From Plumapathes pennacea (taxonomy: Eukaryota; Cnidaria; Anthozoa; Antipatharia; Myriopathidae): a stretch of DNA of 64,000 bases. The translations under genes and the position numbers were made by a program. The stretch spans positions 39,103,680 to 39,167,679 of the forward strand of contig OZ038462.1 in the NCBI GenBank assembly GCA_964036295.1, read 5' to 3'. This document shows, piece after piece, positions 48,379 through 62,299 of the stretch (the first letter of the stretch is position 1; the number at the start of each line of letters is the position of its first letter). Below the pieces are notes generated by a model that saw only the letters and a list, made by a program, of their open reading frames with translations, searched no databases and had not been told where the DNA came from.

Positions 48379-48723
48379 TTATCGGCTGTCTCTCTGTTTT
48401 CTAACCGCTGTCATGAGCTGTCGTAGGAACATTAGAAGTCTGTACGATTGGGAACTGGCAACCGATCCACTCGTGTCCAGTTCATTACCCTGTTCCTCCA
48501 GCTGGGAAGTGGGCTGGGGCTGGTCAGGTTTTGAGGAGAGCCGGATATTCACGCCCAGTGCGTCAAGAGATGCTCGGGGGAATGTTAACGACAACACGCG
48601 GTTGTGGGTAAGAACCATGGAAACACGACGGAGAACTCGGTCGTTGACCTCTTCCGGGAGCGGCCCCAGCTGTCGAGGGTAAACATTGGAACTGTCAGAA
48701 AAGCGCAACAAAACGAGGACGCG
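48379..48723 (-). CDS. PTPDC1: PTPDC1 exon 14 (C terminus and stop)
   Basis: The acceptor catctctattag opens phase 0 at RVLVLLRFSD. The exon encodes LPEEVNDRVLRRVSMVLTH, aligned with the last helices of human PTPDC1, then a lineage-specific tail ending in TAVRKQRDSR and a stop. The tail beyond the family domain is long and rich in Pro and Gln. Confidence 0.8.
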   Translation of the reverse strand, partial: RVLVLLRFSDSSNVYPRQLGPLPEEVNDRVLRRVSMVLTHNRVLSLTFPRASLDALGVNIRLSSKPDQPQPTSQLEEQGNELDTSGSVASSQSYRLLMFLRQLMTAVRKQRDSR

Positions 48724-51700
48724 CTAATAGAGATGATGAGGTATTGGTGTTGTTGATGGTGATAAATGATGATGACGAGTGTGAAAGTGGTAGTAGTACA
48801 GTAGTAGTAGTGATAGTAGTAGCGGCAGCAGCAGTAGTAGTGCGAGAAGCAGTTGCTAGTGATGGCGTTCCAACTAATAAAACGTATCATCCAAGTTACC
48901 TGATGGATCGTGGTAATCAAGCATTCTAAAGTCTTTCTCGTACCCTGCAGGTAACGAAATACAAGAGTCCAATAGGAGTGTTAATGGCAATGCAAACGTT
49001 TATAAACAATTCTGTTGTTTAATTCGTTATTTTACACAGAAGTAAACGACACAAAGATTAACTTAGAGGATTTGGGGCGATGCGGATGTTTATAAACAAG
49101 TCTGTTGTTTCAGCTATACCGGCCCGTTCGTTACTTTAATAGTATTATTTACCCATTTCTTTACATTGTTCTACTTCTAACAAATTTCGATCGCGATAGT
49201 TCGGAACAGGAATTCTTAGGAAACCCTAATGGGCTTATCGAGGAGAGCCCCTGTTTACAGTTACCAGTCCAAGTTCTAATAATACAAAAATATGACTATC
49301 GTAGTCATACATTTAACATAAATGTAATATTTAATAATTATTCGCCGAAGTGGAGGTGAATAGCGGTGGATATTTACCTCGCCGAAACGGCTCGGTATTC
49401 ACCTCCACTTCGGCAAATAATTGTTTTAGTATATACCACACAAGTTTAATAGCCAACTCCCAAATAGCTATTTTATTTCCGACAAAAGTGGGCAAAAATT
49501 GAGTTCGCGCACCATTTTGTTTTACCGGAAGCCGCCGGGAGGTGAATAGTACTTGATATTCCAAGATTGAGGAGCCAATCAGATCGCGCGAAAAGCACTA
49601 TTCACTTGTGTGGTATATACTAAAATGTAATAGTGAAATTTGATAATTACTTGATGTAAAATGTACAAGTTTCTTGTTGCACACCACAACTATACACAGA
49701 AGTAAAGGACACAAATATTAAAGCAAAGCCGCTAAATATATGTTGCTTTAGTCCGTAGACACACTTACTTGATGCAAGTTCTTCAAGGCACTGAGTGGCT
49801 CCAGTTGAGAGGATGCCACGAGCTTAACATCTGCAGGACTCATTACTGGTTCCTTCAAAAGAACAAAAAAATAAAAATGAAGAAACGGAACGACCACATA
49901 CAAAAACACAACAAGGATGTCAACGGTCTCTGGTGCATGATAAAAAAGTTGGAGCAAACAGGAAAGTAAAGAGAAAATCGTAAATGCAGGAGGAATTGTT
50001 TTCAAGTGAATCGAGTGTGAGTCGGGTGTCCACCTAGTTGTCACAAAACTACAACTAAAAACAACTAATAATGCGTAGTTTTCAAGCAACGAACAATGTG
50101 TGGGTACTGTACGAGTATGCGGGGGTAAGGGACATGAGTAGCAGGGGTTGGCAGTTTGTCTTGTTGTGCCTAGCTTGGTCTGACTTTCCAGCCCGTCCAC
50201 AATGTTTCAGGACATTAGGTTCTATCATTCCTCCACAGCAAATATTGTACCATTAGTCTTCTCTTACGAGATAGTCTGGCCCGTTTTAAACGTCGAACTT
50301 TTCATGTGCCGAACTCAATGCAAATTAGCTCAAACAAAGGATTTTGCTCATTTGCATTGAGTTCGGCACGGCAGTGGCGCGACGTTTGAAACGGACCTCA
50401 GTCTCACGAGATTCTTTTGAGTGGTCAGGTTTGGCCACTTTCACAATCATGCGCAGTAGCACTTTTTACTGCCCACATAAACGAGTGTCTGTCAAGTAAA
50501 TCTCTCTACTCAGCTTGGTTTTGTGTCTATATAATTGCATTAGTACCACAGATTAAGCGATACGCTCTGCCCGCCGAGATTTTTCGTCTGGTGGCGCTTT
50601 GCAAACTGCGCATGATTGTAAAAGTGGCTTATTGTATACTCTGTAATATAAGTCAGGCACGTGATTTGCCGACAGTGGCTCCCAGGTGTTGTATAGTGGT
50701 GTTGTTTCCTAGCGGTGTGCGAGGATAAACATAAAAAAAAAGGATTCTTCAAGAATGAATCCTAATGAGAGATCGTAATCGATAACAATAGAGCCGTTTT
50801 CGGATGACTGTCGAAAACCAAAACCAAAGTAATCACACAGGCCAATCACAGAGACTGAGAGAAAACAGTTCAGCCAATTGGAAGCCAAAGTAATTCGCGT
50901 TTGGTCTTGCATTTGGTTTTACTTTCCAATCAGCAGTGCGAGTACACGACATCGCTTGCGTGAGAAGTGTTTGGTTTTGGTTTTGGTTTTGTTCCTGATT
51001 GGCTGAGCATGCTGACAAACTCGTGTGGACCAATGCGAAAGCGAAGCAAACGCAAAACCAAAGCAATCACACAATTACTTTCGACAGTCATCGGAAAACC
51101 GCTCTAAAACAACAAACTTGCAAGTGCGCGATACGTAACTCAGCCAAAGTAGCTCTTTGTTAAATGTAGTTAGTATATACAACGCAAGTTAATAGTGCCT
51201 TTCGCGCGCTCTGATTGGCCCCTCAATCTCGGAATCTCAAGCACTATTCACCTCCCGGCGGCTTCCGGTAAAACAAAATGGCGCGCGAACCCAATTTCCC
51301 AATTTTTGCCCACTTTCGTCGGAAATAAATAGCTATTTGGGAGTTGGCTATTAAACTTGTGTGGTATATACTAAAACAATTACCATCTCAATTACAAGAG
51401 TTGCTTCTATGCTAATATTATTTGTACATTATACTGGAATACTAAAACGGGGAATGGGGAATGAGTTCAGAGAAGCCGACAGAGCTGAATCTTGCAGGGT
51501 TAGGTTTAGGGCTAGGTTTATAGTTCGACGTCAAAACAAGTAATCCTACCATAAACCTACCAGATTTAGCTCTGTTAGCTTCTCGGATCTCGTTCCCCAT
51601 TCTAGTAAACATAACAGGTAAAAATTGCAATTCATGCATACCGACAGATGCTCGAGCCAGGCCCACAGGAGTCTGGTGAGGACCCAAGGATCACTTTCCG

Positions 51701-54700
51701 TCTTCAGTTCTTCCCAACATGAATTTGAGCTGTTCAGTTTCCGCTGCATAGGAAACAGATACGTAGACAAATGCTGTTCAGCTTGCGCTATGAGAGAAGC
51801 AACCACACCTCGGAAAATAGCAACATAACCTGTTCTAAACCAAAGACAAATTAAATCTATGCCCTAATTCAGATACCTTTTTGGGGCGGCACATACTTCC
51901 ATATGGCTTACATATGGGACTCCCCCTTCCTGCCCGGGACAGCAACCAACAACAACAGCAACAACAACAATAACAACATCAACACAACACAGAAAGGGGA
52001 TAAAAATCTCCTGCTTGTGATGTACCGTTTACCTTGAGTCGTTCCGTTCGGTTCTGTACTCCTGCATCGGCACAAGCACTCGCCGCTAAAGCTCTGGCTA
52101 CTTGTATTCTCTCATCAGCGCTCTGTGTACACGCGCTTCTGTCTTTCTGTGTCGCGCTATTTCCAGCCTCACAGCTGCTGCGCCGAGCGCAAACGTCCGT
52201 TGGCCCATTTTCACTGGTAGATAAATAACTGTTTTCTTTCACTCTAAGATCGCTATATCTCTTGACTAGCGAAGGCTGTTTCATGTTCGGGTCTAAGTCT
52301 TTCTCTAGAGTTAACTCAAAGTCTGATGCCCTCCTTTGTCTGTTGGAGACGTTTACAGCTAAATCGTCGGTGGAACCGTTCAGAGTGGGCGCCAATGTTA
52401 CGTCATTCACTCCTTCAACACTGCAGGATCTGCTTATCACTTTCTTGGAGTCTTTGTCTGCGTTTCGACTGAAGGATTCGGTGTCTTGTTCAGTTAATGA
52501 TGAATCTGGTGACCTCTCGTCACCTTCAGTAAACATGTTCTTTATGTCGTCAGACAAACTCCACGGATACGAGGGATCTTCGGCTTTGACACTCCCAAGC
52601 TCTAAAAGCCTCGAACAGACGCTGTACACAATCTGTTGATTCGGAATTGGTAGTGACAACGACGAATACTTCAAAATCAAATTTAAGCCTTGATCAAACG
52701 GTGAATGATAGCTGATGATAGTCGAAGGATCGACAAGAAAAATAACAGAAATTTGACGGAAAAAATATCCCGTAGTTGCTCATTTTCAAACTGTCGAGGT
52801 TTGTTTTTCAGCGCTTCAAAGACTTAAATTTACTTCGCAACACTTTTGGCATTGAACGATCTCTTCAGGTCTAAACATGGAGATCCTTTCTCTAGCGTCA
52901 CAAGAATCGTTTAATCATTCATTAATCCCACACTCACTCTTCCATCAATAACTCAAATCAACGTGTTTACCTTAGGGAGGTATTTGAGGTGTCGGGACTC
53001 GAAGCCATGAAGTAAGCGTTTTTGCCGGATTAAGTACTGTTGTAGCGTGAAGGCCTTGGAATCATGCTGACTGCAGATTGATAAAGGACAAATTACGGAA
53101 CAGTACGTATAAAAATATATGTATATACACGTACAGGGACTGTACGAACGTGTACATTCAATCAGTATGTACACTTGCAGTGACAACAGAGCTCTATGTA
53201 TACATTGACAGCATGGATTTGTTCAAGTTGGGAGAACACGAGAGTAGGCCTCGGCAGCCTCGTGGTTTCCTTACGCTACTCTCGTGTTCTCCCAACTTCC
53301 CGCGCCTTTAGATGAGGCTATATTACACGGGAACGCGTTATATATTTCTTAAACATTGTATATATATAAGAGCATACTGTACCCGGACGCAAACACCACC
53401 CAAAGGTTACTGACGAAACTGGCGAAGTCATTTACACACTCGATTTGACCACGGGTTTGGACAGCTTTCGGTCTGCGCAAAAAGCAACAACACACCAATA
53501 ATCAAACAAACAAACAAACAAAAAATACCAGGGCGCAACCTTTCCTGTCGGGATAATTAACTTTCCCTACAATTTGCTCAGACGAAAGTTGTTTAAACTA
53601 TCTAGTTTAGTGAGCCATGACTACGGACACAAGCTGCCATTTAAAAAAAAAATTTTTTTCATCGCAATTACAGATGAGAAAACTCGTGGGAAGATGCACC
53701 CTCGCTGGAGGAGTTGCTGAGCACGAAGGCATTCCGAACTAAACTAAATATCTCGTTCTGTACAAAGAGGGTATTTGTTTCAAGCCGTTCCAGAACTTCT
53801 AAGAAAAATCACGATGAAGGCAATAGGACTCACCGTTTGGTTCTCATTTTGTGGATGGCCTGTAGATAAAGAACGATACGATCAATATATTTCGATCTGG
53901 CTTTAAAACTCCAAGGTTTAATAAACAGAAAATAAATTCAGTCTTACGCTCCAACCGCTTCCCAACATATGCCACCCCCCCCCCCCCCCTAAAATAGTAA
54001 CACGAAAAGTTGCTTAATAAGTTGAACCCTTCTCTTCCAAGAATGATGAACTTCGATTGTCTCCTTCAGTCTTCTCACAAGGACAATATCATATCAGATG
54101 AAAGCTGATTAAACTATATCAGTTCTTTCTATATCACTCATGCATTTTATACTAAAAGACTGGGAGAATCTGCAACATTGCTGACCCTTTCTGTTTCTCT
54201 GTCCAAGAGTGTAAAAGAAAAAAAAAGAAAAAAAAAATCCAAAACTCCGCTCAATGACATGAAATTGAGAGCTTTCATTTAAGTGGTCACATCTTATCGA
54301 TTCAAATTTCGAGTTTGGCAGTGAAATAGCTATCTTCCCAATGTTACGCACCCTTTTCCAATTAAGACATACTAATGACTAAAGCCCTGGCCAAACGAGA
54401 TGCAAGTCGATGCAAGTTCGACATGACAAAAAAAATTGCATCGACTTGCAAAAGGTGGCCAAACGAGACGCAAGTCGATGCAAGCTCGTGCAAGTTTTGT
54501 AAAAACTTTTTCTTTTTTAGACGGTTCTGAGTCAGAAACCGAGTAAAAAGTCTCTCTTGAGCTGGAACTTAATGAGGAGGCTTTTACTTTTGATTTTTTA
54601 AATTTAGACTTGCCTTTGCTAACGCGCTCTTCGCTGTTTTAGGTGAAAAACTTGCGTCGATTTGCATGAAAATTTGAACATGTTCAAATTCCATGCAAGT

Positions 54701-57700
54701 CACTGCAAGTCGATGCAAGTCCGTGCAAGTTGGTGACCTAACGAAACGCAAGTCCGCGCAAGTTTGAAAACTTGCATCGACTTGCGTTGACTTGCACCTC
54801 GTTTGGCCACCTGACATAGAAATAATAGGGCATTTAATGACGTACCTCATCTGCCTTGAGCCTTTCTGAGTAGATGAAGAAACATGAAATAAGCACACCG
54901 GTCCGACCTGTAAGACAGACCGTGTTAGCTGTCGGTCTAGACCTGCATTAACGCTTTTATGCAGCTGTGTACATGCAATATATAACAATTACATTGTTTT
55001 TTTCATTCATGTTGTAAACGTAAAACATCGTAATTCATGCGGAGAAATTATTCAATAACATCCAGCTTTTATTCTCCATCCTTTATTTACATTTCACCCA
55101 CCTAGTCCTGCATGACAGTGCACAGCAGCCTATCAGACAAGGAAACAACATAATTAAATATAATCCACCACAACCGCAGTATTTGTTTTTTAGATAGAAA
55201 ACCATGCAGCCATTTGTACTGGGAACAATTAAAATTATTTCATACAATTTTCTTTTGCAAATGCTTTTGAGTAATAATTGAGATGAAATATTAACTATTA
55301 TTTGTGATGGGTGCCCTGGCTTAAGCCCTGGCCAAACAAGATGCAAGTCGATGCAAGTCGATGCAAGTTTGACTTGACAGTAAACTTGCATCGACTTGCA
55401 AAAGAGGTGGCCAAACGAGACGCAAGTCGATACAAGCTCATGCATGTTTTGTAGATACCTTTTCATTTTTTACAGTTCTGAGTCAGAATCCGATTCAGAG
55501 GTCTCGCTTGACCTGGAACTTAATGAGTAGGCTTTACATTTGATTTTTTCGGCCTAGACCTGCCTTTGCTAACACGTTCTTCGCTGTTTTAGGTGGAAAA
55601 CTTGCGTCGACTTGCATGAAAATTTAGAGCCGTTTTCGGATGACGGTCAAAAGTAATCGTGCGGTTGCTTTGTTTTTCTCTTTGAGTTTGCTACGCTCTC
55701 GGATCGGTCCAAACAAGTTTAAAGCACTCTTGGCCAATCAGGAGCAAAATCACTGCTTGGTTTCTTCTTCAAAGTGAAATAAAATGTGAACTACTGTACA
55801 TTGCTTCTGATTGGTTGAAAGTACTTCTTACAGCTTATGTGATTGGCAGTGTACTAACTTCGGTTTTCGTTTTCGACAGCCATCCGAAAACAGCTCTAAA
55901 GCCAATGTACTTGTAAGTTCATAATTTACCGTACATTCAAAACTTATGCTGGCTCCTGTAAAGTATATTATTTTGCCTATTGAAGGGTCTATCATACAAA
56001 TTAAAAAAAAGTATTCTTGCCTTTCCTTCTTGTAAAGCAAAAGACATGACTTTAACCATGTCCAGTATGGACTCCAGAGAACGCACCCCATAGTCATTCC
56101 TGGAAACCAAACGAGTGCAACTTAACTATACCAATCCAGCATATGCAGTAACAGTAACATTATATAATCTGGAACTCATTTGGTGGACTGTAGCTGCAAG
56201 GCTAACAAGACAGGTCAAAACTTCCCAACACTTAGAAGAGCATGAAAACTAGCAGTTTAAAACAAATTCAGCAAAAAATAACTGCCGAAATGTTTCATTC
56301 AAATGAAAGCCATGATCACATTTTCAAAGTGAAGCAGGTTGCAGGTCAGAGGTAGCATTTTCTTCTCTTTTAACAGGGCTCGAAATGGCGACCGATACGG
56401 TCGCCAATGCGACCAAACCAGTACCTTTGGCGACTAAAACCTCTCCAGCAGTCGCCAAATTGGCGACTAGCTTTAGACTAAAACAATGACACAATTTTGC
56501 ATGCTATTCCTGCTTTGACAGCAAAATTCCGTGCGGAGACACGACAGACGCAGTTATAACGTAACAGCGCTTTGGATGCAACTTCATGTAATACCACATT
56601 AAATGCGAGCACTTAACATGTGACAGTGCGGCTTCTTTTGATTGGCAGATAAGGAGAAACGTAGATAAATTACGAAGCATTCCTCGAATGTTCTTGGCTG
56701 TCGCGACGTTGGTCAGTTTTTTACACGTGAAACTTAATTATTGGCTTACGGTGACGTTAGTGTGCGGAACGTTTATTTACCGAACGAGAGATTTTGTAGA
56801 TCTTAAATTTTAAATTTTCATTTGCTGAACGAAATAAAACTAGTCATGTCCTGTCTGGTGATAAATGATAATGGTCCTTCTGTAAACAGTGGAGTATGCT
56901 CACTTCGTAAATTCCCGAATGCCTTGTAATCTTGAAATAACGCAACCGGATCACCCAAAGCTTGGCCCGCCTGTGGTTTTACAGACTCAATTGTCTCAGT
57001 TTGTTTCAAAGGCCAACAGATTAAATGCAAATTAGTTTTTGTAGTATGAGTTCCATACAAGAAGTCGCCGATTTGGCAGATTTTAAACAATTTCTTTTAA
57101 CTGATGCAGTCGAAAATGCAAAATGTTTGATCGCCAGTAAGCAAGAAGTTTATGCAAAGTATGTGAGCAAAAGGCGGAAAATCAATTTTGAAGGTAAGCT
57201 GTCAGACGACCTCGCAACAACTCTGATCCCAAACGATGTTGGACAGGGAAAATTGATGTCTGCACTGAGAGCGACAGGAAATGGCGATTGTCTCTTTAAC
57301 TCTGCCTCCATTCTTGTTTGCGGAAATGAATCACTTACGCGAACACTGTGCCTTCTGGTAGCTGGGGAACTTTACTTCAATACCACGTTTTATGTTAACC
57401 ACGAGGCGTGTGTAGTCTGTTCAAGTGAGTCACAATTTTTCTCGGCCCAGGCCTCCAATTGTAAAAACATGGCGGACGTGTGCTTTCGGAGATGATTTAT
57501 CATAACGTGAGGTTATTCTAAGTTGTTGAGGTAGACTATGCAAACTCCAGATCTAATGTAGTTAAAGAAAGTTAGTTATAGTTTCAATGTAAAAATTACA
57601 TATATACATTGTCATCGATGCAATATCGGCATATTACGACACGTACGTTCGTACGTTCTAATCTAGTTACGAATGTTTTTCTTAAGTCTTGACATTGCTT

Positions 57701-58168
57701 GCGATTAAAGGATGAACAGTCAAATTGAAGATTTCAGCCATGTATGATGCTTACACGTCCTTGGTTGCTCGTTTTGAGACATTTTCGACTAATCATATTT
57801 TGCGACTGAAATGTACGAATTGGCGACTAAATGTTTGTACCTAGTCGCCAAATGGCGACTGGACTTTTTTTTTAATTTCGAGCCCTGTTTAACCTGCATC
57901 TGGTATGATACGGACGTACAGTGCTTGGCGTCCTCGCTACATAGGTCCAAACAAAAAGGGGCTGTACTGTGTTGTTTTTCCAAGCGCCCTTCCATTTTCC
58001 AAATGACTCAAGTAAAGAAAACTTTTTAAAAGCTCACTCAAATAATGTGAGTCCAAAATCCCCAGGACGCACTCTGGATACATTGCTGAACTGTAATGGG
58101 TGCAAGGAAAAATGAGAAGGCACTGTACCCTCTACACTGTAGTTTGGGTCTAGCAAGAATGGCTAATA

Positions 58169-58208
<40 letters not shown>

Positions 58209-61200
58209 TAGGTTTATTAGTATTTTCCACTGCGTGGCTCTTCTAATGCTAAGTAAACAAGAATACATATAAGAAATGTAAAAAAATAATGTGTGGGCAC
58301 AATTCTAACTAGTTAATATACAATAACTAATTTACGATAATTAGCTGGCATGGTGACTATTATATAATATTATGAGAAAGCAAAAAGAAAATATCCTGAA
58401 AATAGACATGACAATGAGTACATTTACTGTATCTACAGGGAACTTCAGTATATCACACAGGAAATATTTCGGGAACACTAATGAAAAAAGAACTATTGTC
58501 CTTACCAGCCAAAGTTGTAGAAGAAGACTACTCAAAAAATCATCAACCAGATCATACATGAAAAAGGAACAGAGAAAATACAATGAGCACACTAGCACAT
58601 GATCTATTTTCACCATTAGCCTATCTGTGAGTAACAGTAAACAAGTTCAAAGGCTTGGGCTTGTGGTTTATTGATTCTTTCATTATTGTGAAAAGCCTGA
58701 CAGAAATTTGAGAAGTTAGTTTGGGAAAGGTTTTGGGACTCCAGATGAGCTTGTGGTTTATTGATTCTTTCACTGTTGTATACTATAGTTTTACAGTATA
58801 TGGTCAGATGAAGAACATCTTACTCTCAGCCTGCATGAAGTCTTCTGGGACATAAGAAAATCCACTTTGTTCCAATCCATAACCACAGCTGGCATGCTCT
58901 CCTGGGCGCTGCAGATTCATCACAGAACGTATCCCAGCCCTGGAAAAGAATTAAAAAGCTGCTACTGTATGTAACAAGGACAATTAACTATAAACTCTGG
59001 CAAATACCAGTATGTCAGTACTTTCAATTGATTAAAATGGTTTTCGGGTGAGTTCCCACACATGCACACATATATATATTTATTATATAGACACGAGTAT
59101 TTTACTGGAAAATATACCGTGCGTAAAATCCATACAAAACTACATCCGGGACCCGAGTGGCGTATTTTCCATATCCTCACTAGTGAGGATATCGTTGGCA
59201 TCATTTCCCGCTTTTGCATATGGTTGTTTGTGCAATTTCTCGTAAAACACTCGTGTCTAATATAATAAAAAGAAAATTACACAGCGGCTTGAAGATATGG
59301 ATTATATTTTCGAGTGGTAAAAACAATAATTTACTCACTCACAAAGCGCTTGTTCGTAAAATATTGTTTTTACCACTCGAAAATAAAATTACAGTCATTC
59401 CCAAAAAGGTGGTCCAGTCAAAATATATATTTAGGCAATTATATCTTTATCACGTGACCACTGAAAAACACCATATAACTACAAAGAAATCATTAAGTCA
59501 GCATGTTTATATAATCTTATGGTTGCTAGTCAATAGAATGGTAAAACCAAGAGCCATTGGAGTGTTTCCAGTTTAAAAAACACTATGTACTTTTAGGTGG
59601 TCACGTGACAGATATATTTGTATATTTATATATTATTTATATATTTATACGAGCAACTTGTAAAATACCGGCTTGTATTACACGCTAGACCATTGAATAA
59701 GATGCATATATCTATATATATATACAGTCATTTCAAAAAAGGTTGACCCTCAAAAAATAGTGAAATAGGTAAATACCACGACCGAAAGGGATATTGGGAT
59801 TCATGATTAATTTCAGCTTATTTACTGAATAGCCAAGAATTTCGGGCAAATATATTATTCTCCAGCGAAGTTCACACTCTACGCACACGACATGACTTAT
59901 TAAAACGCGAATATTATCAGATTCATATCATTTCGTCTATTTCACAGAATCCCTTTCGGTCGTGGTATTTGCCTATTTTACTATTTTTTGAGGGTCAACC
60001 TTTTTTGAAACGACTGTATATAATTATATATATAAATTTGTGGGTACAGTATAATATCGATCATGGGGGACCAATCAACATACAAGCATGTGGAAAGCTC
60101 TCACATAAGTTTAAAAGACAGTTAATTATCTTAGCCAATTGGTACTTTGTTCTTTAAACAATTTTATATTACAATATCAAGCCAGGACCAACAAGAGACA
60201 TGTTCTGTACAACTCATAACATTAATGAATAATCAAAACTCCTTGATCTAAACTTACAGTGCATTCCAAACAAATAGTTTCACAGATTTCTTCGATACAT
60301 ACATCCTGCGACCTGAATAACTTACTCGGTAAATTGCTCAATGACATTGTATGTCTTCATTATTTCTGTGGAAGGTCTTGCCATGGCCATGATGTTATCT
60401 GTTATCCTGCAAAAAGATCTGAATAATTTTAATCTGCATCAACAATAACAATATTATTTTAATAGTAAATCATCGAAATAACAATGTCAGTATTGTAAAT
60501 AATATACCAAAGGGGTATTTTGGACTTAGTAAATCTGGTGCCATTAAATTCCTTTGGCATCTTAAGCCAACAAGCTGTATAGCCATGACTTGACCATTAG
60601 CCCAGATAGTTCAAGCAGCTGAGTGTAGGCTGGGTTTAATGATTCATACTTTCCCAAGAGTAAAATGATGAGCTATTTGAGACAGTTGGGGTGTGTAAGG
60701 GAATATATATATACTATAATGTAACTGAGGCTGGATGGAAAATAATGTCAAAGAGATTTGTTTGGTTTGGCAGGAGACAGAAACTTTGTTGGCACAAGAA
60801 TTAAAAGAGTTCATGCTGTCACAAGTGAATAGCAAATAGTACTGTGATGGCATTAATCCCTGATGTTGCAATTATAACAATATTACATCTCACTTATCGA
60901 TCACTGTACACTCTATAATATTGTAAATTAAATAAATTGTTACAAAATAAAGACAGTTTTAAGTGGGCCGGGCCGGGTTTTGCTTATGAACCAAAAACTC
61001 CCAGGAATGTTTGATTTAGGGCTGATGTATAATTTGCATTTGACCACTGACAATCTTGTCTTCCTTTGCTTACAGTACATGTTTACAAGAATAATTTGTA
61101 AACATATATATAGCTGCAAATTATATTATAATAAATAACACCAGTATTAGATATAACCTATATGGTTAGCAGGTAATTTATACAAGTAAAAAATACATTC

Positions 61201-62299
61201 ATAAATAAATAATTTAAAAGGGTTTAGAACAGTACAAAATGCAGCTTGGAAAGGCAGTCAGTCTGCGACTAGATCCACATTGCTCAGTGGATCTAGTCGA
61301 GTGAAGCTTTGAACATTTTAAACACACACAGTACACAAGACTCAACATCTGACCTGCAACCAAATTGCCAATCATGAAGTTTTGTCAACATGCATTGATT
61401 GTAGGCAGATCTTGCCATGGAAATATTTTTATGATCAACTGCATCTACAGTAGTCATTTTGTGTCCTTGAAGCACTGCTTATGTCTGCAGCCTCCCAAGT
61501 GTTGTTTCTTGATTATTAAACAAAGTATTCAATTTACAGATTACCCCAATAACATAACCGTCCTGAGAATATACACCGTTGTACATAATATCGTGAAACG
61601 TTTTTGCTCACACAATAATTACACAGCACTTTGACAGATTGTGTACTCATTCAAAATACGTCTGATAACATTCACAACATGGTGTAATATTGCAATCCGT
61701 GCATCCAGTAAGAGTACAACATTTTGGAATTTATATTTACAGTGTATCAACTACCTTAATTGATACACTGTAAATGTAAATTCCAAAATGTTGTACTACT
61801 CTTACTGGATGCACGGATTGTTATTTCTGCGTTTGGAAAATTTGACTGGGACACAAAATGGAGCGGGCTATCCGGTAGTGACCCATCGAACCTACTCAGA
61901 TGATCCAGTATCATTATTCTAATTCAAAACCTTTTGATAGTCCCGATGTGTTTGGCTAGAGTACCTTGGAAACGCAAGAAATATAGCTGCATGATGATTG
62001 TATACACAGGTCGTGATATCTCTGCAGAAAGCGATCATTTGTAAGTACAAGATATATCACTTCAAGGCAACTTACCATGTGGAATACAGTCCTTTAACAG
62101 CCATCTCTTCGTCTTTCATTTTGCTGGGATTCTCGTATTTGCACTGACGGCCTCCGCAAAACATCGAACATTGGACTGTTCCGGGAGTGAGATGCCGAAT
62201 AGACTCTGACAAACGCGAATATTTCGGCCCTGCATCTTTCTCCAGTTGTTTAGAGTCCAGATGAGTCCACTTCACTTGTCCGCTATTGCCTTCCGCCAT
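48379..62299 (-). CDS. PTPDC1: PTPDC1: cysteine-based protein tyrosine phosphatase domain-containing protein 1
   Basis: Fourteen coding exons on the minus strand join to 1959 nt and 652 residues, with every phase compatible. The N terminus (CSMFCGGRQCKYENPSK, AVKGLYSTW) matches human PTPDC1. Next come TDNIMAMARPS, NLQRPGEHASCG and the general-acid loop FGWNDYG (Asp150). The P-loop is HCHAGLGRTG (His178, Cys179, Arg185), and QTRGQIECV and LQQYLIRQKRLLHGFESR follow. Residues 277-476 are a Ser/Thr-rich, probably disordered region. The C-terminal helical part contains WVLTRLLWAWLEHLSEPV, matching the human C terminus. All catalytic residues are present. Human PTPDC1 has been linked to centrosomes and cilium length (from memory). 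Human length is about 750 residues; the difference is mostly in the disordered middle. Introns hold several MITEs. Confidence 0.95.
49339..49423. repeat. Foldback next to MITE copy A
   Basis: The arms attcgccgaagtggaggtga and tcacctccacttcggcaaat face each other across a short loop containing gccgaaacggc. The foldback abuts the TTTTAGTATATACC element, so it may be part of one composite unit. Confidence 0.7.
49424..49625. mobile_element. MITE TTTTAGTATATACC family, copy A
   Basis: About 202 bp bounded by ttttagtatataccacacaa and ttgtgtggtatatactaaaa, perfect 20-bp inverted ends. The interior contains agccaactcccaaatagc and ccgccgggaggtgaatag. A second copy in opposite orientation lies at 51171-51375. 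In PTPDC1 intron 13. Confidence 0.8.
49769..49852 (-). CDS. PTPDC1: PTPDC1 exon 13
   Basis: 84 bp in phase 0-0 encoding EPVMSPADVKLV and LSALKNLHQ. It aligns directly with EPVITKEDVDMLV in human PTPDC1. Acceptor ttcttttgaag, donor caa|gtaagt. Confidence 0.88.
50279..50396. mobile_element. Foldback MITE
   Basis: The arms ccgttttaaacgtcg and cgacgtttgaaacgg enclose inner arms gtgccgaactcaatgcaaat and atttgcattgagttcggcac. The left arm carries aacttttcat where the right arm carries gcagtggcg, so pairing is interrupted there. No ORF. Confidence 0.7.
50473..50646. repeat. Dispersed repeat, copy 2
   Basis: Same order of shared words as copy 1 at 47052-47222. Here flanking inverted words gccactttcacaatcatgcg (50436) and ctgcgcatgattgtaaaagt (about 50608) look like terminal inverted repeats, suggesting a MITE of about 200 bp. 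Confidence 0.6.
50789..51106. mobile_element. MITE, TAGAGC family, copy 2 (best preserved)
   Basis: The ends tagagccgttttcggatgac and gtcatcggaaaaccgctcta are inverted, and the inner parts continue with tgtcgaaa and tttcgaca. The interior repeats accaaaacc and gccaatcac. About 318 bp with no ORF. Copies also occur at 815-1158 and 55625-55898. Confidence 0.75.
51171..51375. mobile_element. MITE TTTTAGTATATACC family, copy B (inverted relative to A)
   Basis: The right end cttgtgtggtatatactaaaa is intact. The left end tagtatatacaacgcaagtt has a few changes. The interior is the reverse complement of copy A, with ctattcacctcccggcggct and gctatttgggagttggct. Confidence 0.8.
51642..51743 (-). CDS. 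PTPDC1: PTPDC1 exon 12
   Basis: 102 bp in phase 0-0 encoding RKLNSSNSCWEELKTESDPW and VLTRLLWAWLEHLS, a strong match to the human C-terminal WERICGERDPF/MWSWVEQLK block. The acceptor ctgtttcctatgcag was chosen by alignment. An in-frame upstream acceptor at gctgaacag would add ten residues. Confidence 0.85.
52033..52632 (-). CDS. PTPDC1: PTPDC1 exon 11 (long disordered middle)
   Basis: 600 bp in phase 0-0. It starts IVYSVCSRLLELG, matching the human helix after HVPK, then runs through 180 Ser/Thr/Asp-rich residues with many RRxS-like sites, and ends with ARALAASACADAG and NRTERLK. Likely a flexible, phosphorylated region. Confidence 0.85.
52971..53070 (-). CDS. PTPDC1: PTPDC1 exon 10
   Basis: 100 bp starting in phase 2. 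It encodes QHDSKAFTLQQYLIRQKRLL and HGFESRHLKYLPK, nearly identical to the human LPQYLIRQRHLLHGYEARLL block. Donor cctaag|gtaaac. Confidence 0.92.
53225..53298. repeat. Short hairpin with 22-bp arms
   Basis: The arms begin aagttgggagaacacgagag and end ctctcgtgttctcccaactt, a perfect inverted repeat of about 22 bp separated by about 30 bp. In PTPDC1 intron 9. Likely a foldback element; no evidence for a small RNA. Confidence 0.7.
53383..53472 (-). CDS. PTPDC1: PTPDC1 exon 9
   Basis: 90 bp, phase 2 to phase 2, acceptor gctttttgcgcag, donor tccgg|gtacag. It encodes PKAVQTRGQIECV, NDFASFV and SNLWVVFAS. It aligns residue for residue with human RPNSIQTRGQLLCVREFTQF and the following block. Confidence 0.88.
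53834..53859 (-). CDS. PTPDC1: PTPDC1 exon 8, 26-nt microexon
   Basis: The acceptor ctttatctacag and donor cg|gtgagt enclose only 26 nt encoding AIHKMRTK plus two bases of an Arg codon. It fits between exon 7 (KADE) and exon 9 (PKAVQTRG), where human PTPDC1 has AIIFVRAKR. Removing it would break the frame. Confidence 0.85.
53975..53989. repeat. Poly(C) run
   Basis: A run of about 15 C, unusual in this AT-rich setting and a likely site of assembly length error. Confidence 0.7.
54384..54812. mobile_element. TIR element rich in GCAAGTCGATGCAAGT words, copy 1
   Basis: The ends gccctggccaaacgagatgc and the inverted right end gtggccaaacgaggtgcaag match. Both subterminal regions are filled with tgcaagtcgatgcaag and its reverse complement, arranged as possible transposase-binding iterations. 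About 429 bp, no ORF. In PTPDC1 intron 7. Confidence 0.75.
54846..54907 (-). CDS. PTPDC1: PTPDC1 exon 7 (second half of P-loop)
   Basis: 62 bp, acceptor tgtcttacag, donor gatgag|gtacgt. It begins with the last two bases of the P-loop Gly codon, then RTGVLISCFFIYSERLKADE. It supplies the phosphate-binding Arg185. Confidence 0.93.
55102..55129 (-). CDS. PTPDC1: PTPDC1 exon 6, 28-nt microexon with catalytic Cys
   Basis: The acceptor tttccttgtctgatag and donor ctag|gtgggt enclose 28 nt encoding AAVHCHAGL plus one base. It carries His178 and Cys179 of the CX5R signature, so skipping it would remove catalysis. Phases match exon 5 and exon 7. Confidence 0.88.
55325..55624. mobile_element. GCAAGTCGATGCAAGT element, copy 2, truncated
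   Basis: Parallel to 54384-54690 of copy 1 (gccctggccaaacaagatgc, then shared middle ttctgagtcagaa and ctgttttaggt). It stops after ttgcatgaaaattta, exactly where the TAGAGC MITE begins. The right terminal region is missing. Confidence 0.7.
55625..55898. mobile_element. MITE, TAGAGC family, copy 3
   Basis: The ends tagagccgttttcggatgac and gtttt/ccatccgaaaacagctcta are inverted. The interior contains ggccaatcagg and tctgattggtt. About 274 bp. It abuts the truncated element on its left. Confidence 0.75.
56021..56099 (-). CDS. PTPDC1: PTPDC1 exon 5 (general-acid loop), GC donor
   Basis: 79 bp, acceptor gtttggtttccag. It encodes NDYGVRSLESILDMVKVMSF and ALQEGK, including Asp150. The exon ends GGAAAG|gcaaga. 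No GT donor in the right phase is present, so a GC-AG intron fits; AAG|GCAAG is the typical consensus for such donors. Confidence 0.85.
56374..57887 (+). mobile_element. DNA transposon with CAGGG termini carrying an OTU-like ORF
   Basis: The left end cagggctcgaaat and the right end atttcgagccctg form a perfect 13-bp inverted repeat. TTTAA flanks both ends (56369-56373 and 57888-57892) as a likely 5-bp target duplication. Both subterminal regions have repeated ggcgact/agtcgcc words, typical of transposase-binding sites. CAGGG-type ends are common in hAT elements, whose usual duplication is 8 bp, so the superfamily is uncertain. It carries no transposase, only the OTU-like ORF at 57025-57495. 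It is probably a deletion derivative. Confidence 0.75.
57025..57495 (+). pseudogene. Truncated OTU-like cysteine protease ORF inside the transposon
   Basis: A 156-residue ORF. The strongest feature is ATGNGDCLFNSAS, close to the Asp-Gly-x-Cys active-site motif of OTU deubiquitinases, followed by LLVAGELYFNTTFYVNHEA. The usual first half of an OTU fold is present (Asp and Cys), but the later catalytic His region is absent; the frame degenerates after residue ~135 and stops. A methionine at residue 8 (MSSIQEV) may be the true start. Related OTU domains accompany repetitive genes in cnidarians (from memory). Function here is not expected. Confidence 0.6.
58169..58208. repeat. (TAA)n microsatellite
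   Basis: About 13 uninterrupted TAA/AAT units in PTPDC1 intron 4. Confidence 0.85.
58506..58527 (-). CDS. PTPDC1: PTPDC1 exon 4, 22-nt microexon
   Basis: The acceptor gattttttgagtag and donor ctg|gtaagg enclose 22 nt. They encode the last two bases of an Ile codon, FFYNFG and two bases of Trp. Together with exons 3 and 5 this gives EIFFYNFGWNDYG, matching YFYNFGWKDYG of human PTPDC1. It is the smallest exon of the gene. Confidence 0.85.
58824..58939 (-). CDS. PTPDC1: PTPDC1 exon 3
   Basis: 116 bp, acceptor attcttttccag, donor gctgaga|gtaaga. It encodes AGIRSVMNLQRPGEHASCG and YGLEQSGFSYVPEDFMQAE, very close to the human NLQRPGEHASCGNPLEQESG block. Confidence 0.93.
59090..59615. repeat. PTPDC1: Nested palindromic repeats in intron 2
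   Basis: Three separate inverted repeats follow one another: a perfect 22-bp palindrome, an 18-bp pair tied to cgagtggtaaaaac, and a 14-bp pair with tcacgtgaccac. They may be remains of one or more foldback elements starting near cacgagtattttactgg. Confidence 0.55.
59725..60016. mobile_element. Tc1/mariner-type MITE with 68-bp TIRs
   Basis: 292 bp between TA dinucleotides (59723-59724, 60017-60018). The left end cagtcatttcaaaaaaggtt and the right end, inverted, cagtcgtttcaaaaaaggtt agree over about 68 bp with only a few mismatches, up to accgaaaggga. The middle has no ORF. The TA duplication and CAGT ends fit the Tc1/mariner group. Confidence 0.85.
60326..60406 (-). CDS. PTPDC1: PTPDC1 exon 2
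   Basis: 81 bp, acceptor atctttttgcag, donor ccga|gtaagt. It encodes ITDNIMAMARPSTEIMKTYN and VIEQFT, aligned with human VTDNILAMARPSSELLEKYH. Confidence 0.93.
60407..62075 (-). other. PTPDC1: PTPDC1 intron 1
   Basis: 1669 bp containing a short hairpin at 61266-61299 (gactagatccac/gtggatctagtc) and the foldback at 61693-61820. Otherwise AT-rich with nothing recognised. Confidence 0.65.
61693..61820. mobile_element. Near-perfect foldback element (128 bp)
   Basis: The left end caatccgtgcatccagtaag and right end cttactggatgcacggattg are exact inverses. Pairing continues through acaacattttggaattt and acagtgtatcaa almost to the centre, leaving a loop of about 12 bp. No ORF. Confidence 0.8.
62076..62299 (-). 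CDS. PTPDC1: PTPDC1 exon 1 (start codon)
   Basis: The ATG at 62299 has Kozak context aaggATGG, and an in-frame TGA lies two codons upstream, so the start is well supported. The exon encodes SRLSESIRHLTPG, CSMFCGGRQCKYENPSKMKD and AVKGLYST, ending in the split Trp75 codon at acatg|gtaagt. Confidence 0.93.

Follow-up and report, generated by a model that had tools for sequence, protein, structure and literature searches.

Three very short exons in the phosphatase domain of a PTPDC1-like gene of the anthozoan Plumapathes pennacea

The window analysed here, a stretch of 64,000 nucleotides (nt) of Plumapathes pennacea contig OZ038462.1 (positions 39,103,680 to 39,167,679 of the forward strand), carries a PTPDC1-like gene on its minus strand. 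Three exons of this gene, E4, E6 and E8, are between 22 and 28 nt long and lie inside the catalytic domain. The gene model was drawn by hand from the sequence and then checked by script. The spliced frame is open across all 15 exons and gives a coding sequence of 1950 nt including the stop, not the 1959 nt of an earlier first-pass annotation. The gene and the exons of interest are listed below in window positions.

48379..62299, minus strand: PTPDC1-like gene, 15 coding exons, coding sequence of 1950 nt with stop, 649 amino acids (gene model and domain matches)
58824..58939, minus strand: exon 3 (E3), 116 nt (gene model)
58506..58527, minus strand: microexon E4, 22 nt, phase 1 in and 2 out, encodes (I)FFYNFG(W)
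56100..58505, minus strand: intron 4, 2406 nt, about 1.5 kb of which belongs to a repeat that has near-identical copies at other sites of the genome
56021..56099, minus strand: exon 5 (E5), 79 nt; its donor is probably GC, which would make intron 5 a GC-AG intron
55102..55129, minus strand: microexon E6, 28 nt, phase 0 in and 1 out; its peptide AAVHCHAGL(G) is the P-loop of cysteine phosphatases
54846..54907, minus strand: exon 7 (E7), 62 nt
53834..53859, minus strand: microexon E8, 26 nt, phase 0 in and 2 out, encodes AIHKMRTK(R)
53383..53472, minus strand: exon 9, 90 nt

The full-length product matches the Pfam families DSPc (42.2 bits, cut-off 33.5) and Y_phosphatase (36.9 bits, cut-off 20.9). 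These and related families cover residues about 93-229. The catalytic domain contains the HCxxGxxR P-loop, as HCHAGLGR. Solved cysteine phosphatases matched by the product include PTPRE, LAR and ShufPTP, and the ShufPTP alignment spans the residues from E4 to E8 with one single-residue gap. The name PTPDC1, already given in the first-pass annotation, is based on similarity to human PTPDC1; by this similarity the locus would be a PTPDC1 orthologue. In the 290-Mb assembly, a query with the domain gave six matches. Four of them are at the PTPDC1-like locus itself and the other two, at separate loci, are homologues of CDC14 (260 bits to CDC14A in a search of solved structures) and DUSP23 (141 bits in the same kind of search). 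Thus, at the sensitivity of the domain query, a second PTPDC1-like copy was not seen in the assembly. Searches with 276 of the 649 residues gave no confirmed relative among viral contigs (10 pattern matches) or in a collection of non-eukaryotic genome contigs (11 pattern matches).

E4, E6 and E8 all have the size of coding microexons: they are internal, at most 30 nt long and bordered by splice sites on both sides, the acceptor of E4 being weak. The catalytic motif VHCHAGLG lies in E6. The tryptophan split across the E4/E5 junction would start a WPD-loop-like W-N-D-Y-G stretch. The four junctions proposed in the first-pass annotation (58824|58527, 58506|56099, 55102|54907 and 53834|53472) all agree with our model; its lengths of 22, 28 and 26 nt were right and phase is kept by all three exons. 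Its view that the small exons are needed for the coding frame is likewise borne out. E4 restores the frame exactly between E3 and E5, and leaving out E4, E6 or E8 alone brings a premature stop (codons 175, 199 and 218, respectively).

Splice sites were scored with two matrices, one built from 11 donors and 11 acceptors of non-microexons of the same gene, the other a textbook vertebrate matrix. The candidates, the true exons among them, were the AG-(6 to 51 nt)-GT segments without a stop that bring the frame back and come no closer than about 40 nt to the ends of the span. There were 101 of them in the E4 span, 19 in the E6 span and 48 in the E8 span. On splice score only, E6 (1/19) and E8 (1/48) ranked first and E4 second (2/101) with both matrices. 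Under the textbook matrix the two sites of E6 score 8.9 and 8.9 bits and those of E8 9.9 and 10.7 bits. The E4 acceptor reaches only 2.4 bits, as compared with 7.0-10.4 bits for 11 of the 13 other acceptors (the remaining two, E10 and E11, score 5.1 and 2.8). The earlier statement that each microexon has good splice sites therefore stands for E6 and E8 under the textbook matrix but not for the acceptor of E4. A tandem acceptor at E4, GAG|TAG, would permit a 25-nt form, but the upstream acceptor is much poorer (-2.1 vs 2.4 bits).

The encoded peptides were then compared with those of dinucleotide-shuffled spans. With human PTPDC1 peptides as references, the homology score was reached in 0/300 shuffles for E4 and E6 and in 85/300 for E8; homology and splice score together were reached in 0/300 for each of the three exons. 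The E4 peptide reads IFFYNFGW, the human one IYFYNFGW. With peptides of distant phosphatases as references (CDC14, DUSP23, PTPRE and ShufPTP), the E6 P-loop was reached in 0/200 shuffles. When the E8 peptide was omitted or swapped for those of three of its 47 rivals, DSPc fell from 45.2 to 28.9-30.4 bits and Y_phosphatase from 40.0 to 26.3-27.9 bits. The same treatment of E4 (three of 100 rivals, or omission) lowered Y_phosphatase from 40.0 to 34.7-34.9 bits. E6 and E8 are firmly predicted to be genuine exons. E4 is probably genuine too, with exact limits that we infer.

Intron 5 (56020-55130, minus strand), which leads into E6, probably starts with GC (AAG|GCAAGA), a feature that the first-pass annotation did not mention. 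Among the donors listed, GT or GC and up to 300 nt into the intron, this is the sole one preserving both the full E5 and the frame. From the sequence, intron 5 is most likely a GC-AG intron.

Related phosphatase genes of the same genome offer a comparison. In the CDC14 homologue (L006 700-1866), the whole catalytic region, P-loop included, is in one open frame of 388 amino acids, with no intron near the P-loop. Therefore, the residues carried by E6 and E8 are contiguous protein there. In the DUSP23 homologue, splice consensus places a phase-0 intron immediately ahead of the P-loop (GRGE|AVAVHC). The intron lies 4 residues from the histidine there vs 3 in the PTPDC1-like gene (K|AAVHC); the two may go back to one ancient intron or to two. 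A third homologue (L008), presumably PTPMT1-like, has no intron directly before its P-loop.

Taken together, the locus probably holds a PTPDC1 orthologue in which many introns leave three very short exons that are constitutively spliced by the U2 spliceosome. The phosphatase domain would simply have been cut by many introns. E4, E6 and E8 would be included by the ordinary spliceosome, E6 and E8 through their good sites, and constitutive inclusion would be the rule. No functional mRNA could do without any of them: the coding frame depends on all three, the presumed WPD-loop tryptophan spans the E4/E5 junction, E6 encodes the P-loop and E8 contributes a conserved stretch. If any of them were mis-spliced, a premature stop would follow, probably with nonsense-mediated decay as the outcome, and a switch would be unnecessary.

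Several results weigh against this picture or parts of it. The 11-site matrix scores E6 low (acceptor 3.6, donor 1.4), which we take for a small-sample effect judging from the textbook matrix; the E4 acceptor is weak there as well. With the distant phosphatases as references, shuffles reach the E4 score in 92/200 cases and the E8 score in 72/200, so that the E8 peptide is matched by chance with both reference sets (72/200 and 85/300). Against these references E4 is second-best, its 25-nt form scoring one point higher; E8 is also second-best, one point below an unrelated 29-nt segment. It follows that E4 leans on similarity specific to PTPDC1, and E8 on its splice sites and the Pfam test. In that test, swapping the E4 peptide for three rivals left DSPc unchanged (45.1-45.7 vs 45.2 bits), and omitting it raised DSPc from 45.2 to 48.1 and Tc-R-P from 37.7 to 40.4 bits. 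One of the three microexons, most likely E4, might thus have been mis-drawn, the real exon being another small exon or one with a shifted splice site. The weak acceptor, the second rank and the poor discrimination by distant references and Pfam would all fit, but the comparison with the human peptide (0/300 shuffles) and the exact repair of the frame between E3 and E5 leave very little room for such an error. Three in-frame GT donors within E5, which would give exons of 13, 43 and 49 nt, are alternatives to the GC donor, and there is also an in-frame GC donor (61 nt). Use of these four would remove 22, 12, 10 and 6 domain residues, respectively. The stretch that would be lost is covered in the ShufPTP alignment, with its one single-residue gap. 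In addition, in human, nematode and Arabidopsis, genes with alternative splicing are richer in GC donors (PMC2490688), so that some regulation at E6 is conceivable.

The first-pass annotation had seen in the microexons a possible on/off switch by splicing. In such a switch, single skipping of E4, E6 or E8 would act through nonsense-mediated decay. The stops at codons 175, 199 and 218 do fall 976-1109 nt ahead of the last exon junction. However, ordinary exons skipped singly also give early stops (exon 3 at codon 110, exon 5 at 156, exon 7 at 206 and exon 10 at 252), so that a frame-breaking length is not special to the microexons. It had been argued that none of the three has a length divisible by three. 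This is true of 22, 28 and 26 nt but overlooks that E6 and E7 together form a 90-nt, phase 0-0 unit that holds the active site and whose joint skipping keeps the frame. A joint skip of E6 and E8 likewise returns the reading to frame further downstream (631 amino acids). In mouse, constitutively included microexons are described as having the strongest splice signals, and neuronal, muscle and some neuromuscular ones as having weak sites, although a fraction of 0.74 is in frame; high site scores and the highest in-frame fraction go together in the non-neuronal alternative class (PMC7821500). With the good sites of E6 and E8 under the textbook matrix and their frame-breaking length, constitutive use fits best. 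Nor do the lengths have the usual frame-preserving character of regulated, eMIC-type microexons, and the eMIC-driven neural programme is described as being of bilaterian origin (PMC8797185). A search for the eMIC domain (PF15230) gave no match in this genome, but none of 14 control genomes matched either. A search for the GFP family was likewise without a match here and in its controls. We consider a regulated switch of this kind very improbable; tiny frame-breaking exons are in themselves no evidence of one.

A different kind of regulation could involve repeats resembling miniature inverted-repeat transposable elements (MITEs) on either side of E6 and E7:

55317..55625, no strand assigned: MITE-like repeat in intron 5, apparently truncated; a second inverted end is present in many of the other copies
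55329-55370 and 55405-55450: arms of the intron 5 MITE
54376..54812, no strand assigned: related MITE-like repeat in intron 7, with an arm (54767-54812) complementary to those of intron 5

Arm 55329-55370 is 90% complementary to 54768-54809, and arm 55405-55450 is 80% complementary to 54767-54812. These arms enclose exactly E6 and E7. The MITE family is widespread (102 matches at the 40 places scored of 457 candidates). A 24-bp helix, 55405-55428/54789-54812, is predicted with pair probabilities of 0.75-0.87 in a 2161-nt fold. For the six of 24 pairs reported, a 1.3-kb fold gives 0.63-0.69; the values are 0.91-1.0 in a fold of 0.76 kb, which omits a portion of the competing intron 7 element. 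If the arms paired and looped the two exons out, the E6+E7 cassette might sometimes be skipped or circularised, the skipped form giving an in-frame protein without the active-site loop. The product of this skip has no Pfam match at E<=1, and a GC donor is probable for intron 5. In Caenorhabditis elegans such inverted pairs are described as promoting skipping and back-splicing (PMC8330042), and human PTPDC1 is described as yielding a circular RNA of exons 2-6 (PMC8579456). However, the idea is post hoc. In 20 sampled 10-kb stretches, 3.0% of positions lie between such arms, and 4 of the 20 hold at least one such pair. At that rate the chance that at least one of 14 independent exons is enclosed is about 1 in 3 (0.35). 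Elsewhere in the gene, E13 is surrounded by a longer inverted pair (49418-49623/51170-51382); pairing within the intron 7 element is possible too; and about one third of exon pairs are expected to be in frame by chance. We therefore regard skipping or circularisation of the cassette as unlikely. That transposon-made pairing behind a GC donor would tune the share of PTPDC1 with an active site, or make an E6-E7 circular RNA, is a model that we consider slightly less likely still.

Very short coding exons have precedents. Tiny exons in conserved motifs are of an already known kind: plant coding microexons (9 nt in AP2 and invertase, 1 nt in APC11) lie inside conserved domain motifs, are required for a correct protein model and are easily missed by annotation (PMC8831610). 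The present exons resemble them in these respects but are from an animal gene, measure 22-28 nt and are known from one species. Constitutive vertebrate microexons, as described in PMC7821500, share with them the size of at most 30 nt and, for E6 and E8, good splice sites. Here, in contrast, three occur in one domain, all break the frame and inclusion is predicted. The neural eMIC/SRRM4 microexons are described as alternatively included and neural, with a link to a splicing domain called bilaterian (PMC8797185), and the likeness is in size alone. In our judgement three microexons in one domain are uncommon. No report of microexons in PTPDC1 was found among the listed titles and openings of abstracts on PTPDC1, cnidarian microexons and phosphatase exon skipping. 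For annotation, a pipeline missing an exon of 22-28 nt would lose the active site and call the gene broken. With its three microexons, probable GC-AG intron and repeat-flanked pair of active-site exons, the locus makes a compact test case for the recognition of tiny exons outside vertebrates.

Besides the phosphatase domain, a C-terminal region (residues about 467-553; 48900-52100) is weakly RhoGAP-like (PF00620, E=0.026 in the full protein). The C-terminal piece alone gives E=0.0021 and 18.4 bits, below the cut-off of 24.5, with a match that begins at profile position 26. A search of PDB sequences with this region gave five matches, all to repeat proteins, and no RhoGAP chain at E<=10.

Other repeats were also seen in the gene. 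The inverted repeat 49418-49623/51170-51382, in introns 12 and 13, aligns over 214 columns with 90% identity, including a 56-nt stretch at 100%; exon 13 (84 nt, in frame) sits between its arms. A second inverted-repeat element, 55623-55900 (TTTAGAGCCGTTTTCGGATGAC...), adjoins the intron 5 MITE, and a similar pair is found at 50789-51106. The element of intron 4 (56370-57892, ends set by eye) is about 1.5 kb long, has inverted ends (ACAGGGCT...) and by eye is apparently flanked by TTAA. Its plus-strand open reading frame 57025-57495 matches no Pfam family at E<=5; it contains a GNGDCLFN stretch reminiscent of OTU proteases. Eight other near-full copies of this element occur in the genome with 96-100% identity, so that it is probably young.

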